Part shown: in pieces, positions 7,288 to 30,983 of the stretch
How positions within the stretch are numbered: the stretch's first letter is position 1
Layout: each line of letters opens with the position of its first letter
The notes under the pieces: model-generated
The model's database searches: none
What the model was told of the DNA's origin: nothing
What the model saw: only the letters and a program-made list of their open reading frames with translations
From: a virus
IMG/VR virus record: IMGVR_UViG_3300046328_000807
Span: 1-30,983 of that record
Strand: one strand, 5' to 3'
DNA length: 30,983 bases
Made by a program: the position numbers and the translations under genes

Positions 7288-7321
7288 AAAACCCACCCTG
7301 TTTTATGGGGTGGGTTTTTTT
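7288..7321. terminator. Bidirectional rho-independent terminator
   Basis: ACCCACCC (7291-7298) pairs with GGGTGGGT (7308-7315) around a short AT-rich loop. A T-run follows on the plus strand and a matching A-run precedes it, so it works for both the tail operon and the convergent DUF2335 gene. Confidence 0.85.
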
Positions 7322-7811
7322 ATTCTTCATCATCTTCCTCATCCTCTTGCGCTTTTTTATTGGACTTGTTTCTTTTATTCCATATTCTTGCTATACCGCC
7401 CAATGTGCTAAGCCCGAGTAATCCACCTGCCACAGCAGGATCGCCATATATGCCCACTAAAGTTGTAGACAACATAATTATTGCAATACTTACAACAGAA
7501 TATAACTGACCCCTCGCATTTTGTTTAGATTGTAGTTCGAGTAACTTTGAATCCATTTCAATTTTATGTCTTTGTTCGTTTTCCACCAATTTAAGGATTC
7601 TGTCGGCACCGTTGGGCGTGGCATCATTGAATTTGGCGAGTTCTTCTGGGTCGGGTATAATGCCTTGGTGTACGGTCTGGCTTGTAAACGAAAAACGTTG
7701 TGCGATAATTTGTTTTTGTTGGCTGCTTAGATTAGCCTCTTTGGCGATTTGGTCTATGTCTGCGTTTGTTTTGGCTATTTCGTTTTTTCTTTTATTCCTT
7801 CTATTGGTCAT
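7320..7811 (-). CDS. DUF2335-like membrane protein
   Basis: This 163-residue protein has a soluble N-terminal half containing the segment GIIPDPEELAKFNDATPNGA followed by DRILKLVENEQRHKIEMD, closely like the DUF2335 pattern (PPPEEL...PGSAERIL...EQ.HR.E). Two membrane spans follow (about residues 104-122 and 126-144) and an acidic tail. The biochemical role of DUF2335 proteins is not known; they often occur on mobile elements. It is downstream of the 72-residue gene at 7821-8039 with a 9-bp gap, so the two form a leftward pair convergent with the tail tube gene. Confidence 0.65.
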   Translation of the reverse strand: MTNRRNKRKNEIAKTNADIDQIAKEANLSSQQKQIIAQRFSFTSQTVHQGIIPDPEELAKFNDATPNGADRILKLVENEQRHKIEMDSKLLELQSKQNARGQLYSVVSIAIIMLSTTLVGIYGDPAVAGGLLGLSTLGGIARIWNKRNKSNKKAQEDEEDDEE

Positions 7812-20037: not shown

Positions 20038-21078
20038 TTATTTAGTTAAAAGGTTTTGAAAATAGGCGTTGTCGAATACCATCTTGCTGACGGCTTTCCC
20101 TGCATTCTTGCTTTTGAGTAGTGCTTTAACCAATTCTATATCCTGATTTTCAGACCCATCCAATTCAAATGTGCCTGAAAGCCACAATTTTGTTATTTCG
20201 GCAATCTGCTCTTTGTTGAATTTTCGAGGTGGGTTAAGTACGTTTTCGATATAGTTCGACATACTTTGATGGGCAAAGTTTTTGCTTTCAGGGTTTTTAC
20301 CTGCATTGTGTTCTATTGCCCTTGCTTTTTTCCTCAATCTTTTTGGGATTGAAATACCCTCGTCAACAGCAAGACCGCAAATAATCCTGTTCCCCTGTTT
20401 TTTCGACATTACCTCTGTCTTTGATTCATTGATGGTGAATCCTGATTTATTGACCAATTCCGTGACAACTGAAATAATCCTGCTGTGAAATTCCTTGTCT
20501 TCGTTATTGGTAGATATGGTAATGTCATCGCTGTACCTTGAATATGAAACCTCGTTATCCAGTTGCTTTAGACTTTCAAAAAGCAATGAATCAATTTCCG
20601 CAAAAACGATATTCGATATTGCAGGGCTTGTCGGCAACCCCTGGCCCGAAACCATTTTTTTATTCAATTTCACAAAGCAGTTGTCTTTGATGAATCTTGC
20701 AATCGTTATCGGTATCTCAATTATTTTTAGTGCCGTGTTGCCATACATGGCTTTTATGAAAACATCTATATCGGGATGTAGGTATTCCCTGCTTTCCTCC
20801 GAAAAATATCTGCAATTGTCTATTTTTTCAAAATCAATCGAATGGAAAAAGTCTTTCAAATCCATTTTGATTGATATTTTCTTGTTTACATGGGTTTCCG
20901 CATTGGTATAGGTGTTCCTTCCTATGATATAGGCGTGTGCGTGTTCACAGAAAACATCCTGCAACTGCGACAAAACAAGGGAGTTTATCCGTCTAAGCCT
21001 TCTTTTTTGAAGTTTATCACAATCAAAGACTATCCGTTTTGAACCGTCTTTTTTACGGATGATTATTTTTTTTATCAT
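20038..21078 (-). CDS. Retron reverse transcriptase
   Basis: This 346-residue RT reads: KKDGSKRIVF (RT1-like), N59-A-E-T-H63 (the retron NAxxH motif), DLKDFF (73-78), GQGLPTSP (145-152), the catalytic YSDD at 182-185 (Ser where most retrons have Ala), then TEVMSKKQGNRIICGLAV, whose ICGL (233-236) stands where retrons have VTG. It would make a branched RNA-DNA hybrid (msDNA) from the RNA encoded just upstream. No maturase or protease domain is fused to it. It lacks the DGR pattern. It precedes the HNH gene by 5 bp. No effector domain is fused; the tail (about residues 280-346) is helical. Confidence 0.88.
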   Translation of the reverse strand: MIKKIIIRKKDGSKRIVFDCDKLQKRRLRRINSLVLSQLQDVFCEHAHAYIIGRNTYTNAETHVNKKISIKMDLKDFFHSIDFEKIDNCRYFSEESREYLHPDIDVFIKAMYGNTALKIIEIPITIARFIKDNCFVKLNKKMVSGQGLPTSPAISNIVFAEIDSLLFESLKQLDNEVSYSRYSDDITISTNNEDKEFHSRIISVVTELVNKSGFTINESKTEVMSKKQGNRIICGLAVDEGISIPKRLRKKARAIEHNAGKNPESKNFAHQSMSNYIENVLNPPRKFNKEQIAEITKLWLSGTFELDGSENQDIELVKALLKSKNAGKAVSKMVFDNAYFQNLLTK

Positions 21079-22877: not shown

Positions 22878-23375
22878 ATGGATAAAATGAATGAAAGACT
22901 GGAAGCAATAACGAAACTGGAAGGTCTTGCAAAATCAGGTGATGAAGCCAATATAAGGCTCGCCTACCAATTGAACAAGGGTAACAAGCTAATGACTGAT
23001 GCCGATTTGGTGGCGTTGCTTGAGAACCCTCTAAAATCGAAAATACTGGAACTTGCCGAAATGGTGGGTGGGGTGTCAAATGTAAAGTTGGCAGAGGATA
23101 TTGTATACTATTCGCACAAAGATAATATTGCCTTAGATGAGGATTTTGTGGAACATCTAATGACGAGGGGTTTCAAACACGGTTTCGGAATGAAGGCTTC
23201 AGAAACACACTTCATTAACGAAATAGAATACTCGTTGAACAACACATTGAAATTGAATTTGAAAAATATCAAACTTCAAGTAAGTTCGCAGTTCAATAAA
23301 ACGGAATGGTCGTCCAAACCCATTACTGATTTTATTTCAAAATTGGAAGAGATGTTTAGCACGCAGATAGTATGA
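22878..23375 (+). CDS. Hypothetical protein
   Basis: This 165-residue, largely helical protein is the first gene behind a consensus promoter. It overlaps the next gene by 4 bp (ATGA). It has no signal peptide or membrane segment. No family is recognised. In a temperate phage the position, divergent to the accessory operon, would fit an early or regulatory gene, but no DNA-binding motif is evident. Confidence 0.55.
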   Translation: MDKMNERLEAITKLEGLAKSGDEANIRLAYQLNKGNKLMTDADLVALLENPLKSKILELAEMVGGVSNVKLAEDIVYYSHKDNIALDEDFVEHLMTRGFKHGFGMKASETHFINEIEYSLNNTLKLNLKNIKLQVSSQFNKTEWSSKPITDFISKLEEMFSTQIV

Positions 23376-23644
23376 AAGCGATTGCCACACTCCTATTTAT
23401 CTGCTTATCCTTTGCGGTTTTCGCACAGGATAGGCAGATGCTTCAAGACCGACTGCAAAGCAGTATAGGCAACATTGAAGCCTTTGAAAATTCGCTCCCA
23501 TCCCCTTTCGATAGTTGTACCCAATACAACAATTACACTATCTGTTATGAAAACGAGGGGTGCTGGTTCTCCGAAAAAGAGACCGTGTTTTGGTTGTCGT
23601 TCGATGAAATTTTGGACATCATAAAACGAAAAGAGGATGAGTAA
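23372..23644 (+). CDS. Small exported protein
   Basis: The 90-residue protein starts with a clear signal peptide (MKAIATLLFICLSFAVFAQD), probably cleaved after FAQ or VFA. The mature part has three Cys (in SCTQ, TICYE, GCWF) and a charged C-terminus. It overlaps both neighbours by a few bases (ATGA upstream, 8 bp downstream). An exported phage protein could block superinfection or assist lysis. The family is not recognised. Confidence 0.55.
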   Translation: MKAIATLLFICLSFAVFAQDRQMLQDRLQSSIGNIEAFENSLPSPFDSCTQYNNYTICYENEGCWFSEKETVFWLSFDEILDIIKRKEDE

Positions 23645-24792: not shown

Positions 24793-24811
24793 TTTCGCTT
24801 CTTACTTGTAC

Positions 24812-24850
24812 GGGCAACAAAATAAAAACTGTCGCCTCAGTCTGTTGCCC
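24812..24850 (+). promoter_or_regulatory. Hairpin in the terminase 5' leader
   Basis: GGGCAACA (24812-24819) pairs perfectly with TGTTGCCC (24843-24850). No T-run follows. It lies within the predicted leader, 21 bp before the start codon. Confidence 0.5.
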
Positions 24851-24871
24851 TGCAAGTTAATTATTGAAACT

Positions 24872-26464
24872 ATGAAAGATAACGAGGTTCTAAGGCTTGC
24901 CAAAATTGAGAAATACAGACGTATTCTGATGCAGAAATACAGGGAGAACCCTGCATTTTGGTTGTCGGACAGGTTTGGCGAAAGCAAGGAATCAATTATC
25001 TGGTCAATGTTCGACAATTACGAAGGCTATGTCTGGGATGGGGATAAAGACCCACTCTATCAGGCTTGGAGGGAACTAGGGAATGGCAACTGGGTAGGTG
25101 TGGAATCGGCAACGGGAACTGGGAAAACATACACGCTTGCAAGGATAGTGTTTTGGTTTCTGGACTGCTTTGAAAATTCATTGGTGGTCACCACAGCCCC
25201 CAAAGAATCACAGTTGAAACTGCATCTCTGGACTGAAATAGAAAAGGCTTTCGGGAAATTCAAGAGGATAAGACCCAATGCGGAACTATACTCATTAAGG
25301 CTTGTGGTGGATGGAACGAAGAAGGATAATATTGAGGATGAAACAGCAGGGTGGCAGGCGGTCGGCTTTGTATCGGGTGTGGGGGCAAGTGAAGCTAGTG
25401 CGACAAAGGCACAGGGATTCCACAGAGAACACATGCTAATCATCACGGAGGAAACACCGGGCATAGGATTGCCAATTTTGACAGCTTTTGAAAATACAAG
25501 TACGGGTGGTCACAACCTTATCCTTGCGGTTGGGAATCCCGACAGCGAAACTGATACCCTCCATAATTTTTGCAAATCGGATCGGGTAAAAAGTTTCAGA
25601 ATATCTGCTTTGGATTTCCCAAATGTGGTGCAGAATCAGGAAGTGGTGAAAGGGGCTGTAACAAGGCAAAGCATTGATTTCAGGAAAGACAAGTACGGTG
25701 AGGAAAGCAATTTCTATAAATCGAGGGTTCGGGGGATTTCGCCAGCCCAATCCAAAGACAGTTTAATCAAACTCGCTTGGATTGAGGACTGCATCATTGA
25801 ATCGGATGAAGAACCGACTGGATTAGGTGCATTGGGGGTTGACGTGGCAAACAGCGAAACAGGCGACAAGGCTGCTTTGGCTTGGGGAAAGGGGAACACA
25901 CTCACGGAATTGCAGGAGTTTCAATGCCCGAACGCCACTCATTTAGCTTACAACCTGATAATGCCAGATATGGAACTGGCTCAAAACAACTATTTGAATT
26001 ACAGGACTGGAAAAATAACCACTAGGAATGTGAAGCCCTACAATGTAGGCATTGACGGGGTGGGCGTGGGAGTGGCGACAATCAACGCATTACACGACAA
26101 AGGCAGAAAGGTGGTGAGTTTGCAGGGAGGTCAGCTTGCAAAAGCGATTCAGAAAGATTCGGAGGGTAAGCCATTGTTCAATTTCAATTCGCTTAGAGGT
26201 CAGATGTACTGGGAACTAAGGGAGGATTTGAGGCTTGGTGAGGTTCGGTTTTGTGTGAAGGACAAGACATTACTCAGGCTTCTTGTTTCGGAGTTGGTCA
26301 TCCCAAAAGTGGAACAGAAAGAGAAAATAGCGGTGGAATCAAAGGACGCTATAAAAAAAAGACTTGGACACTCCCCCAACCTTGCGGATGCGGTAGTGTA
26401 CTGGAACTGGATTAGAAAAGGGCATTACAAAGAGAACAACGTCATTTTACCATTTGGAATATGA
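24872..26464 (+). CDS. terL: Terminase large subunit
   Basis: The start is ATG 24872 (MKDNEVLRLAK), giving 530 residues. An in-frame TTG at 24806 would place the leader hairpin inside the gene and is rejected. The ATPase domain has Walker A SATGTGKT (79-86), Walker B MLIITEE (188-194) and a GNP motif at 221-223. The nuclease domain has acidic residues D324 (GVDVA), D395 (GIDGVG) and D506 (LADAVVYW). It cuts and translocates phage DNA into the head. The stop overlaps the gp25 gene by 4 bp. No small subunit gene is next to it; the small subunit and portal may lie outside the window. Confidence 0.85.
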   Translation: MKDNEVLRLAKIEKYRRILMQKYRENPAFWLSDRFGESKESIIWSMFDNYEGYVWDGDKDPLYQAWRELGNGNWVGVESATGTGKTYTLARIVFWFLDCFENSLVVTTAPKESQLKLHLWTEIEKAFGKFKRIRPNAELYSLRLVVDGTKKDNIEDETAGWQAVGFVSGVGASEASATKAQGFHREHMLIITEETPGIGLPILTAFENTSTGGHNLILAVGNPDSETDTLHNFCKSDRVKSFRISALDFPNVVQNQEVVKGAVTRQSIDFRKDKYGEESNFYKSRVRGISPAQSKDSLIKLAWIEDCIIESDEEPTGLGALGVDVANSETGDKAALAWGKGNTLTELQEFQCPNATHLAYNLIMPDMELAQNNYLNYRTGKITTRNVKPYNVGIDGVGVGVATINALHDKGRKVVSLQGGQLAKAIQKDSEGKPLFNFNSLRGQMYWELREDLRLGEVRFCVKDKTLLRLLVSELVIPKVEQKEKIAVESKDAIKKRLGHSPNLADAVVYWNWIRKGHYKENNVILPFGI

Positions 26465-26820
26465 GTGCATTAATTTTTCCGATACGCATCGGGGCAAATG
26501 GATCATCCGAACTGGCTGTATCGAATAAGGATTCGATACAGCAGAATGTGAAGGCTATACTTGGAACACAGCAGGGAGGTTACGGTTTCGACAGGTCTTT
26601 CGGTTCAAGGCTTAACGAATTGACTTTCGAGCCTAACAACGAGGTTCTGATTACTCTAATGACCAGCTTTATCAAGACTGCATTGAAGCAGGAAAAAAGG
26701 ATACAGGTACAAAGGATATTTTTCGAGGTGGATACCTCGATTGTAAAAAGCAGAATAATATACACAATAATCCAAAGCAACTCCACTGAGGAGTTGATAT
26801 ATGATTTCCAAAGATTATAG
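26461..26820 (+). CDS. gp25/gpW-like baseplate wedge protein
   Basis: This 119-residue protein has the family pattern: FPIRIG..G......D.I.QNV..IL.T..G......FGS.L..L.FEPN and a C-terminal helix. It forms part of the baseplate wedge, where the sheath first contacts the baseplate. Its overlap with terminase (ATGA at 26461-26464) is odd, as terminase usually sits with head genes. Confidence 0.85.
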   Translation: MSALIFPIRIGANGSSELAVSNKDSIQQNVKAILGTQQGGYGFDRSFGSRLNELTFEPNNEVLITLMTSFIKTALKQEKRIQVQRIFFEVDTSIVKSRIIYTIIQSNSTEELIYDFQRL

Positions 26821-26823
26821 ATT

Positions 26824-28488
26824 ATGGCTCAACAAAGACTTTTCGAGTTCGAGGCACCCGATAGCACATTCGACCTCAACAGCAGATTTGCAACCATCGC
26901 ACCGGGCGGACTGTATTACGGTTTCGATGCGGTACGGGGTGCATCAATGAACCTAGGTTTCAACCACCTGACCACGGGGCAAAACTACGTGAACGACAAC
27001 TTATCACTTACAGACAAACTGGGTGTCGTAATCACAAAGCAGGGCGTTGAAATCCGTATCGGCACGGTTGCCAGTCTGCCAATCAACACAACGGCAGGGG
27101 TAACCCGAAAGGATGCGGTGATACTGGAACATGGCTACGTATTAAGTACGGGCGGAAATCCTGCATCCATCAGCGTTTTGGAAAACGTGACACTCCCCCT
27201 CACCCTTGCAAGCAATCAGGTTCTACTCGGTATTCTCGAACTGCCAATCAATTGCACTGCATTGAATCAGTCAGGGGTTGTTTATACAAGGTCTGAAAAG
27301 CCAAAATTCGCTTATGCTGGCGATGTGGATTTGAGTGGCTATTACACAAAAGATGAATCTGATAATTTGTTCAGAAACGTGATTTCACTACCTGATGACA
27401 GCGATTTCAATGCGATGTATCCTTCTGATAGCCCTACAAATCTTTGGGGTTCGATTAGATACGGGGTTGTAATTAATACTGGTGGAGGATTCAACAGCCC
27501 TCCTGCCTTGTTCGGGTCATACTGGCTTGTGGAAGTAATCAGAATTGATTCTGCCAGAATTGTTCAGGTTGCAACGGATATGGATAGCAACCCGAATAAA
27601 TGGTATAGGTCGAAATCATACACCAATTCGGAAAACTGGGAACCGTGGAGAAGGTTTGCAACAAGTGCGGATATAAGCATTCTGAATGCTTCCATTTTGC
27701 AGAAAATAGACATTTCCGAAAAAGGTGTTGCCAACGGGGTTGTGCCTCTTGGGGCGGATATTAAAATCCCTGCAATCTATATCCCTGATGAATATAGGGA
27801 ATCCAAAGTTGTCAACAATATTGCCGAAAGAGATGCGATTGCAATAGTATTTGACGGATTGAAGGCACACGTTATAGATGCGACAGCCGATGTAACGGTT
27901 TCGGCAGGTTCGGCAGGTTACATCTACCAATTATCCACAACGTCTTGGAGCAAGGTTTACGAGGGCGAAAGTTTGGATTTGAACCTTTGGAACTACTATA
28001 CAAAAGGGGAAACAGATTCAATTTTCACAAACTATTATACGAAACCTGAAACTAATTCAATTTTCACAAACTATTATACGAAACCTGAAACTGATGGGTT
28101 GATAGCAGGTGTTAATGCAAATGCAAACTCAAAGGCTGTGGTTGGAGCTACGGGGAGTTGGGTCGATTTGGCTTTGACTTTCCAAAGTGGTGACGATAAC
28201 CTTCAATCTTATACGCTCAAAGCAAAGAAAGACCAATTTGGGGAAGTTACAATTATTGGGGATTTCCAGTTTGCCGTTAATTCACCTTCAGCATTTTATC
28301 TGCATACGCTTGGAGCATCTTTAACACCATTCAACAATTCAACTATATCACAGCCCATTCAAAACAGTGGAATAGATTCAGGTAAACTAGGGGGGCTTCA
28401 TATTATCAACGGGAATCTTTTCATCTCAAGGGATGTGTCATCAATAGGAGGGCTAGGCAATTTCATACTAAAATACCCAACAGCTTAA
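26824..28488 (+). CDS. Tail fibre protein with YYTK repeats
   Basis: The 554-residue protein has an N-terminal baseplate-attachment region (about 1-165), a first YYTKDESDNLF repeat at about residues 173-183, a middle beta region, and three further copies of the 13-residue repeat (YYTKxET-) near residues 391-430. YTK-repeats occur in phage fibres as trimeric shaft or hinge elements. The C-terminal part (about 440-554), beta-rich, is the likely receptor-binding tip. The final stop overlaps the next gene's ATG. The role in host adsorption is inferred. Confidence 0.75.
   Translation: MAQQRLFEFEAPDSTFDLNSRFATIAPGGLYYGFDAVRGASMNLGFNHLTTGQNYVNDNLSLTDKLGVVITKQGVEIRIGTVASLPINTTAGVTRKDAVILEHGYVLSTGGNPASISVLENVTLPLTLASNQVLLGILELPINCTALNQSGVVYTRSEKPKFAYAGDVDLSGYYTKDESDNLFRNVISLPDDSDFNAMYPSDSPTNLWGSIRYGVVINTGGGFNSPPALFGSYWLVEVIRIDSARIVQVATDMDSNPNKWYRSKSYTNSENWEPWRRFATSADISILNASILQKIDISEKGVANGVVPLGADIKIPAIYIPDEYRESKVVNNIAERDAIAIVFDGLKAHVIDATADVTVSAGSAGYIYQLSTTSWSKVYEGESLDLNLWNYYTKGETDSIFTNYYTKPETNSIFTNYYTKPETDGLIAGVNANANSKAVVGATGSWVDLALTFQSGDDNLQSYTLKAKKDQFGEVTIIGDFQFAVNSPSAFYLHTLGASLTPFNNSTISQPIQNSGIDSGKLGGLHIINGNLFISRDVSSIGGLGNFILKYPTA
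28016..28092 (+). repeat. 39-bp in-frame tandem repeat in the fibre gene
   Basis: Two copies (28016-28054, 28055-28092 and one mismatched base) are identical over 38 of 39 bp. They encode 13 residues each. A diverged copy precedes them. Confidence 0.85.
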
Positions 28489-29306
28489 TGAAGTCAATAT
28501 TTTACATATCTCTGTTCCTGCTCTGTCTCAATCCTGCAAATTCTCAGTCGGAAATAGAGATGATTGCAACCAATGTGCTATCAAACGGGATTACTACGGG
28601 TGTTTCAAGCCTAATCAACAAGCCGAAACACAAAAAGCTATTGCCGTATATGCTTAGAAGTTTCGGTTACGGGTGTTTGGGTGGTGGAATCATCTACGGG
28701 GCAAAAAAAACAGGGGAACTGATTGTGAGCGAGGAAAACTTAGCCTACGGGCAGTTGTCAAAGCTGGTTTTCTGCATCGGCAGCTCTATCAACTACAATG
28801 TCGCTAGGAATATGAAGCCGTTCGAGGAATTTACATATTTTTTCGGGTTTTCTGAATTTTCATACAATTTCAGGGAACACCGATTCAGGGTGTTTCTGAA
28901 TCCTTATAGCCTTATCCGTTTTTTAATCCTTGTTTCAAGACCAGAAATTACGTTCTCGATTGCAAAAACATTCGAGATTGGGGATTTCTATTTTGAGGAA
29001 CAATTCAACCTATTGAATCCACCAGACTACAAAGGATACTACAACGCAGACTATATAGTTGTAAACGATTTGGTAAAAATATACAGGCAGTTGGGTTATT
29101 CAAATGATTTCGTTTCAACCCCCACCCACGAAAGGGTACATCTTTTCCAAGACAGGGAGTTATTGGTTTTTAACAAGGCAGTCAGCCACCGTTTGGGGAT
29201 TGATAAATTTTTCATTCAAAACGATGCAAGGATTTTTGATTTGACATATTCTGTCAATAGCGAATATTACGAATCGGAGGCATATTTTTTCAGTAGAATA
29301 AGATAA
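28488..29306 (+). CDS. Exported protein with HExxH metallopeptidase-like motif
   Basis: The 272-residue protein has an N-terminal signal peptide (MKSIFYISLFLLCLNPANSQ, cleavage about residue 19). The body is beta-rich with aromatic residues. Near residues 211-218 is TPTHERVH (HERVH = HExxH, residues 214-218), then LFQDRELLV. HExxH is the zinc-binding and catalytic motif of many metallopeptidases, and the E after the motif could be the third ligand, but this is not certain. Its place between fibre and baseplate genes suggests a virion or lysis link, although the signal peptide argues for export from the infected cell. The family is not recognised. Confidence 0.55.
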   Translation: MKSIFYISLFLLCLNPANSQSEIEMIATNVLSNGITTGVSSLINKPKHKKLLPYMLRSFGYGCLGGGIIYGAKKTGELIVSEENLAYGQLSKLVFCIGSSINYNVARNMKPFEEFTYFFGFSEFSYNFREHRFRVFLNPYSLIRFLILVSRPEITFSIAKTFEIGDFYFEEQFNLLNPPDYKGYYNADYIVVNDLVKIYRQLGYSNDFVSTPTHERVHLFQDRELLVFNKAVSHRLGIDKFFIQNDARIFDLTYSVNSEYYESEAYFFSRIR

Positions 29307-29312
29307 ATTACT

Positions 29313-30962
29313 ATGGCAAACCTATTTTCATATTTGAGCCGTTCCAAAGAGCAGATTTTGCAGGATTTGAAGGTTATGTTGCCTTCGGAGTTGCCCGAAA
29401 TCAAGGACTACGAAAGCGATATTCTTGTACGTGGCTTGAAAATCTGGGCGAACCTTGCTGAAAACCTCCACTACTACATTGACAATGTGGCGAGGGAAAC
29501 ACACATTTCAACCTGCAGATTATTTTCGAGTGCGGTGGAACTTGCCGTTGCGGAAGATTACAGGGTAAGGGGCTTTATTCCCTGCAACGTCAATCTTACT
29601 TTCACATTGTCGGCTGTTTCTGCTACGGTCGTACTGATACCGAAAGGCACGATATGCGAAACAGCGGACGGGATACAGTATATAACGACACAGGATTTGA
29701 GTATCCCGATTGGTCAGCTTTCAGGTATTACCAATGCCAGTCAGGAAACATTTGTCCCTTCGGCGGTCATAGGGATTACAAACGGAACTGAAAATCAAAA
29801 GCTAATTCTTGCAGGTCAGATTGTCGATAACTCTCTTGATATTACAATCGCATCGGAACAATACGAAGCGAAAGAAACTTTTTTCAGAAGCCTCCCTGCG
29901 AGCCTTCATTTCATCCAAAGCGTCAACAGCGATGCAATCACCGAAATCAAATTCGGAGATGGTATCAATGGCAAACTCCCATCCGCAAATCAGAACATAA
30001 ACGCATCCTATTACACAACACTAGGCACAAAAGGCAGGGTTGGTAAAAACAAAATCAACAAGATTGTTTCAACGCTTTCACTCCCATCGGGTATCACTGC
30101 AACCGTAACCAATGTTTCGGAAAGTTTCGCAGGATCTGACAGGGAGAAAACAGTGGAAATCGCAAAGAATGTTTCGATACTCAACAGAACCGTGGAAACA
30201 GCAATCAGCAGGGATACATACAGGGATTTGGGGGAACTCGCCCCAGGCGTTGCCAAAGCAGGATTGTCATACAACTACGGCACTACCGTGGATATATTCG
30301 TAATTCCCGATGGTGGGGGGATAGCCAATCAGGCGTTTTTGGACGCTGTGGAGGCTTACTATCAGGATAAAATCATAATCTGCACCCGTGTAAACGTAGG
30401 TTCGGCAGGAGAGGTTGATGTCGTACTGGATATTGATGTGGAACTGCTTTCAAATGCTGACAGACTTGAAACAAGCCAAAAAATCAAAAACGCACTTGTA
30501 TCGTTCGGCAGTCTTGATACTCAGGATATTTCGGGCAGGATGGTTTCGGGAAACATTGCCCAAATAGTCTGCAATGTGGCAGGGGTTAAATCCTGCATCA
30601 TCAATGTTTTTTCCATAATCCCTTATGCAAGACCCATCTCTTCCACAACGGAATTGAATTGGGATGCGACATTGCTTGTTGGCTCTATCGTACCACACAA
30701 TTGGAAGATAAGGTTCACAGCCTCAAATACATTCCAACTTTTCAAGGATGACACGTTTGCAGGGAATTACACGGTCGGGTTCTTGGTATCTCTCCCAGAA
30801 ATTAGTTTCATAATCAATCAGAATTATGCAACCAACGATGAATGGACATTCGTAATATACCCGTTTTTGGGTGACAGGTCGGGAAGCTACGAACTTTCAG
30901 AACCTGCGATTTTGAGCATAAAAGAAAGCAATATCACACTTAATCTGATAGGGGGGATTTAA
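29313..30962 (+). CDS. Baseplate J-like protein
   Basis: This 549-residue protein has an N-terminal helical region (SRSKEQILQDLKVMLPSELPEIKDYE), then a beta-rich J domain (PKGTICETADGIQYITTQDLSI; GITNGTENQKLIL), the conserved EIKFGDGINGKLPSAN segment, and a GITATVTNVSESFAGSD stretch, typical of the baseplate J/gp47 family. It forms part of the baseplate wedge with the gp25-like protein. It ends 1 bp before the next ATG. Confidence 0.85.
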   Translation: MANLFSYLSRSKEQILQDLKVMLPSELPEIKDYESDILVRGLKIWANLAENLHYYIDNVARETHISTCRLFSSAVELAVAEDYRVRGFIPCNVNLTFTLSAVSATVVLIPKGTICETADGIQYITTQDLSIPIGQLSGITNASQETFVPSAVIGITNGTENQKLILAGQIVDNSLDITIASEQYEAKETFFRSLPASLHFIQSVNSDAITEIKFGDGINGKLPSANQNINASYYTTLGTKGRVGKNKINKIVSTLSLPSGITATVTNVSESFAGSDREKTVEIAKNVSILNRTVETAISRDTYRDLGELAPGVAKAGLSYNYGTTVDIFVIPDGGGIANQAFLDAVEAYYQDKIIICTRVNVGSAGEVDVVLDIDVELLSNADRLETSQKIKNALVSFGSLDTQDISGRMVSGNIAQIVCNVAGVKSCIINVFSIIPYARPISSTTELNWDATLLVGSIVPHNWKIRFTASNTFQLFKDDTFAGNYTVGFLVSLPEISFIINQNYATNDEWTFVIYPFLGDRSGSYELSEPAILSIKESNITLNLIGGI

Positions 30963-30963
30963 T

Positions 30964-30983
30964 ATGTTTTCAGTCAAAAAAAT
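30964..30983 (+). CDS. Start of a further gene (partial)
   Basis: ATG 30964 begins one base after the preceding stop; only six codons (MFSVKK) are visible. In this setting a further baseplate or tail-fibre gene is likely. Confidence 0.55.

Follow-up and report, generated by a model that had tools for sequence, protein, structure and literature searches.

A probably exported orphan protein with an HExxH motif, encoded beside a fibre gene in a probable insertion between baseplate genes of a phage that probably infects Bacteroidota

The tail gene cluster of a virus whose host is probably a member of the Bacteroidota encodes a 272-residue protein with a predicted signal peptide, an HExxH motif and no assignable family, in what is probably a two-gene cassette inserted together with a tail-fibre-like gene. 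The gene (28488..29306, + strand; open reading frame (ORF) call, ATG start) lies in a linear IMG/VR virus record of 30,983 bases (IMGVR_UViG_3300046328_000807), the whole of which was analysed and is here called the window. Its 272 codons are intact, with zero internal stops, and the two features that a sequence-only reading had picked out in the product, a signal peptide and HERVH at residues 214-218, are both present. We take the gene and the motif to be real, export to be likely, the inserted cassette to be probable and the family to be an orphan. The best overall reading, to which we give a probability of about 0.35, is that the protein is exported to the envelope and produced along with the fibre, and is plausibly a peptidase of gluzincin-like type that would alter the surface of the cell making it.

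The gene is closely packed among structural genes on the + strand. On its left are a gp25 baseplate wedge gene (26461..26820, +; Pfam GPW_gp25, E = 2.1e-10) and the tail-fibre-like gene (26824..28488, +; PHROGs phrog_7946 and phrog_1446, minor tail protein, E = 1.5e-5), which carries YYTK repeats (D1), and on its right is a baseplate J gene (29313..30962, +; Pfam Baseplate_J, E = 4.5e-10), so that the position between fibre and baseplate genes proposed in the sequence-only reading stands. The fibre stop codon and the ATG of the 272-residue gene share 1 base (TAATG), its own stop codon is separated from the baseplate J start by 6 nt, and no terminator-like sites were found on the + strand in 26400-30983. 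This tight spacing and the absence of terminator-like sites support the late-operon placement that had been suggested, and the gene reads as belonging to that operon and not as a free-standing moron. Promoter-like sites in the same interval (n = 14) show no excess over shuffles (mean 10.8, s.d. 3.1). The codon-usage index (0.767) and GC3 (0.459) of the gene are inside the range of other phage genes, which for the index is 0.729-0.811 across the 17 phage genes or gene pieces measured. Its GC content is 0.389, against 0.409 in the second half of the fibre gene, 0.467 in the first half and 0.441 in baseplate J; a foreign origin argued from low GC was dropped, as gp25 is also at 0.403 and codon usage is ordinary. 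Upstream, gp25 overlaps the end of the terminase gene (24806-26464) by 4 nt. In L004 and L005, two loci that hold a terminase relative, the terminase is followed by genes that look, by size and order, like portal and capsid genes; this differs from the terminase-gp25 order here, and the gene order of the window phage therefore looks rearranged.

Insertion of the two genes is suggested by comparison with 49 loci (L027-L075), chosen because each holds a baseplate J gene related to the one in the window and comprising 5 phage records, 1 bacterial contig and 43 viral contigs, some of them near-duplicates. The gp25-like ORF overlaps the baseplate J start or ends no more than 29 nt from it in 48/49 of these loci, and the exception (L054) has 194 nt between the two, with a 70-residue ORF. 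In the window, by contrast, gp25 and baseplate J are 2,492 nt apart, and this space holds the fibre gene and the 272-residue gene, for which a two-gene insertion between gp25 and baseplate J is the simplest and a probable reading. No HExxH ORF was found beside baseplate J in any of the related loci L027-L075, and searches with 8-residue patterns of the fibre found no fibre relatives in viral_contigs. The two genes presumably travel together as a pair.

The host assignment derives from the window's integrase, which has Arm-DNA-bind_5 and Phage_int_SAM_5 domains. Its relatives in the plasmid collection, at <60% identity, are all from Bacteroidota (61/61 records; genera Bacteroides, Phocaeicola, Parabacteroides, Prevotella, Segatella or Marivirga), and the virus therefore probably infects a member of this phylum. 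The window also encodes a reverse transcriptase (20038-21078, - strand; Pfam RVT_1, E = 1e-24) of a retron or unknown-group kind, for which the best PADLOC model is RT_XIII (E = 3e-45); no Rfam RNA families were found in the window. A DUF2335 membrane protein (7320-7811, -; E = 1e-14), encoded on the strand opposite the tail genes, matches a PHROG listed among morons.

Signal peptidase I cleavage in Bacteroidota usually leaves a glutamine exposed (PMC5837995), and the N terminus of the 272-residue protein has this arrangement. A signal peptide at residues 1-19 (28488..28544, +; pattern test), MKSIFYISLFLLCLNPANS, is followed by QSE, with a predicted signal peptidase I cut before Q20 (the Q-rule). 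It has a basic n-region (lysine), a hydrophobic core, A at -3, S at -1 and Q at +1, making the cut site ANS-Q. Two leucines precede C13, which therefore forms no lipobox, and the lipobox cysteine of exclusion lipoproteins of the T5 Llp type is absent. The Q-rule pattern, which we wrote ourselves and which is not a trained predictor, was matched by 2/108 window ORFs of at least 60 residues, by 100/20,000 scrambles of the protein's first 35 residues and, across 74 loci (L002-L075) with 2,139 ORFs, by 4 distinct ones. Export through the host Sec and signal peptidase I pathway is thus likely on the strength of the pattern, which bears out the sequence-only reading on this point. That reading had also considered an exported protein odd in such a phage, a premise weakened by the exported Q-rule proteins reported from Porphyromonas phages (PMC10367356). 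The other window ORF to match the pattern (23372-23644, +) encodes a second predicted exported protein, of 90 residues (MKAIATLLFICLSFAVFA followed by Q), that has no Pfam family. A 333-residue protein of another phage contig (L026:13871-14872, +) likewise begins with a Q-rule signal peptide and matched no Pfam family at E ≤ 0.1.

HERVH is the sole HExxH among the 108 window ORFs of at least 60 residues. The motif extends to HExxHxxQ (HERVHLFQ, residues 214-221, ending in Q221; 29127..29150, +), in which H214 and H218 are candidate zinc ligands and E215 the candidate catalytic residue, as inferred from the motif. An ExEA sequence (ESEA, residues 262-265; 29271..29282, +) lies 44 residues past H218 and offers E262 or E264 as a candidate third ligand. 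Among 100,000 scrambles of the protein, HExxH occurred in 0.47%, HExxHxxQ in 0.005% and HExxHxxQ with ExEA 10-70 residues downstream in 0.001%, figures that overstate significance because the longer motifs were picked post hoc and the finding was selected from the whole window. E.EA was present in 914/40,000 random 82-residue stretches (2.3%) and in 14/105 distinct HExxHxxQ ORFs from the collected loci, a set partly gathered by motif and containing the window's gene twice. A survey places ~52% of HExxH occurrences within known Pfam domains (PMC3650047), so an orphan HExxH is in itself no proof of a peptidase. HExxHxxQ followed by ExEA fits a gluzincin, so that a one-zinc gluzincin-like peptidase, a candidate form of the metallopeptidase suggested in the sequence-only reading, is the leading chemistry, one towards which we lean slightly, and a zinc site is possible.

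The absence of a known family, asserted in the sequence-only reading, was borne out by profile searches. The protein matched no family in Pfam, PHROGs or NCBIfam at E up to 10, which includes the profiles of DUF4157, DUF6782, SprT and other catalogued HExxH families, and nothing in PADLOC at E up to 0.01; nor did it match PDB sequences at E up to 10. Searches by tblastn of phages (E up to 1 and 10) and plasmids (E up to 1) gave no match, though a chromosomal relative in Bacteroidota may exist. Patterns of 8 residues returned 20 stretches from genome_contigs, with 0 relatives among them, and 0 relatives from viral_contigs. Three motif scans were equally unproductive. THERVH..Q led to 6 contigs, with the motif in frame in two, both encoding membrane proteins without similarity; HEMIHxYQ led to at least 116 ORFs with the motif in frame, which among the matches listed were mostly SprT-like and resembled the 272-residue protein at noise level; and [TAV]HE[RA]VH[VLR]xQ led to 422 stretches and 0 relatives. 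In 40 genomes related to a Dysosmobacter metagenome-assembled genome (GTDB), 3 matches (E 0.016-0.85) were dismissed as chance. As no relative was found in the collections searched, the motif and third ligand stand without support from conservation. Exported Bacteroidota proteins with a similar glycine-rich stretch and an HExxH motif may exist.

The full-length single-sequence model is unreliable (mean pLDDT 32.8). A model of residues 184-272 (pLDDT 55) puts HExxH and ExEA in separate helices, and was built from an alignment of the protein with six zincin-like fragments, which presupposes zincin likeness and biases the result. Foldseek with this weak fragment model returned chance matches only and no metallopeptidase (best E 3.4), and a profile of the fragment alignment gave three matches to PDB sequences (E about 0.5) that covered the motif only and were rejected. 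When the six zincin-like phage fragments alone, with the 272-residue protein left out, were the hhalign target, 16 residues round the motif were aligned at a probability of 4.3%, and scrambles that kept the motif (eight residues fixed) outscored the protein in 12/12 cases. Likeness to these phage fragments is, in such comparisons, limited to the motif. These results also bear on a quite different possibility, in which the protein is an exported, moron-like accessory protein of the periplasm or outer membrane that carries HExxH by chance. Such a protein would have no enzyme activity and, like T5 Llp, would prevent entry or modify the surface through binding. Both models are poor and zincin homology past the motif is absent, and a frequency of 0.47% in scrambles of one protein means that a chance match somewhere in a window is not remote; the combination of HExxHxxQ and ExEA is nevertheless far rarer in scrambles, though chosen post hoc, and we regard chance as a serious but doubtful explanation.

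For the reading of an exported, gluzincin-like envelope protein, the steps would be as follows. Translation would occur late and be coupled to that of the fibre gene, both genes belonging to the two-gene cassette between gp25 and baseplate J. Host Sec and signal peptidase I would export the protein, with cleavage at Q20, and the mature form would act in the periplasm or on the outer membrane of the cell that made it. There it may modify or cleave the surface structure to which the fibre attaches; new virions would then be spared loss on the producing cell or its debris, and secondary infection would be blocked. We propose this job only tentatively, as the most likely of those considered. Action on the producer's envelope is suggested by the precedents of T5 Llp and a Listeria metzincin, and pairing with a receptor-binding fibre makes receptor alteration a better candidate than lysis. 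An exported peptidase that helps lysis late in infection by cutting envelope proteins or peptidoglycan links would also fit the late-operon position and predicted export, and a secreted phage-derived metzincin does increase lysis in Listeria (PMC8235301). However, the neighbours examined are structural, the Pfam and PHROGs scans name no adjacent endolysin or holin, a Pfam search of the protein found no peptidoglycan-binding domain and the host is probably Gram-negative, unlike Listeria, all of which makes a lysis helper unlikely. Less likely again is a virion protein whose N-terminal hydrophobic stretch is membrane-active and which rides on the fibre or baseplate to act on the next host cell. 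The contractile-tail cluster does place the gene between two baseplate wedge genes, and HExxH effectors such as VgrG2b are known on contractile systems (PMC6899460), but a textbook signal peptide with the +1 Q preferred by the host would take the protein out of the cytoplasm and away from tail assembly. The boldest version of receptor alteration, in which fibre and exported zinc enzyme form a mobile matched pair and the enzyme clips the fibre's receptor protein on the producer, with receptor binding and self-exclusion passed on as one cassette, is a speculation to which we attach little weight.

No title or abstract opening among the open-access papers searched describes a fibre/baseplate cassette in a Bacteroidota phage that encodes an exported protein with HExxH. 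Exported Q-rule proteins as such are already known from Bacteroidota phages (PMC10367356); new here are the Q-rule cut site of this protein, the probable cassette between gp25 and baseplate J, the extension of the motif to HExxHxxQ followed by ExEA, and the finding of no relative in the collections searched. Should the pairing be real, a contractile-tailed phage would pass on receptor binding and receptor removal as a single module, and the protein would offer an enzyme candidate, open to testing, for superinfection exclusion in Bacteroidota. To our knowledge, little is known of superinfection-exclusion systems in this phylum. At minimum, an orphan exported protein joins the accessory genes of these phages and the gp25/baseplate J junction is marked as a site that can accept cargo.

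Four described systems and two proteins from other phage contigs provide points of comparison. Phages of Porphyromonas gingivalis (proposed Nixviridae) encode exported Q-rule proteins of unassigned function, for which outer-membrane effects have been suggested (PMC10367356). These share phage encoding and a signal peptide ending before Q with the 272-residue protein; compared by description only, they differ in that the passages describing them mention neither HExxH nor a fibre-linked cassette (PMC10367356). T5 Llp is likewise an exported phage-encoded protein, and it blocks FhuA, the receptor of T5's own receptor-binding protein (PMC9586334). It is described as a small lipoprotein made early in infection (PMC9586334), whereas the 272-residue protein is encoded in a late operon, has HExxH and is without a lipobox. 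Mtz, a secreted metzincin of phage origin, is an exported metalloprotease acting on the envelope of its producer, which it changes, sensitising Listeria to phage lysis (PMC8235301). It differs in being a metzincin, against HExxHxxQ here, and in the type of bacterial envelope on which it acts. The metzincin motif is longer and includes a third histidine. The gluzincins of DUF4157 and the VgrG2b C terminus also have HExxH and are encoded with contractile-tail genes, and VgrG2b has a third Glu ligand and periplasmic toxicity (PMC6899460). VgrG2b activity resides in a domain of a spike protein (PMC6899460), whereas the 272-residue protein is separate and exported, and at E up to 10 it has no Pfam match. 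The closest parallels in kind are exported proteins on two other phage contigs (L020:4808-5329, a probable lipoprotein, and L022:9328-9771) with HE[AR]VHxxQ and ExEAYC, the L022 protein having a sub-threshold match to DUF6782 (E = 0.0094). They are not demonstrable relatives, being shorter (147-173 residues), with zero similarity to the 272-residue protein outside the motifs and other genome positions, but share with it a signal peptide or lipobox, HE[AR]VHxxQ, ExEAY and a place among late genes near a terminase, suggesting that proteins of this exported, zincin-like sort recur in late gene clusters.
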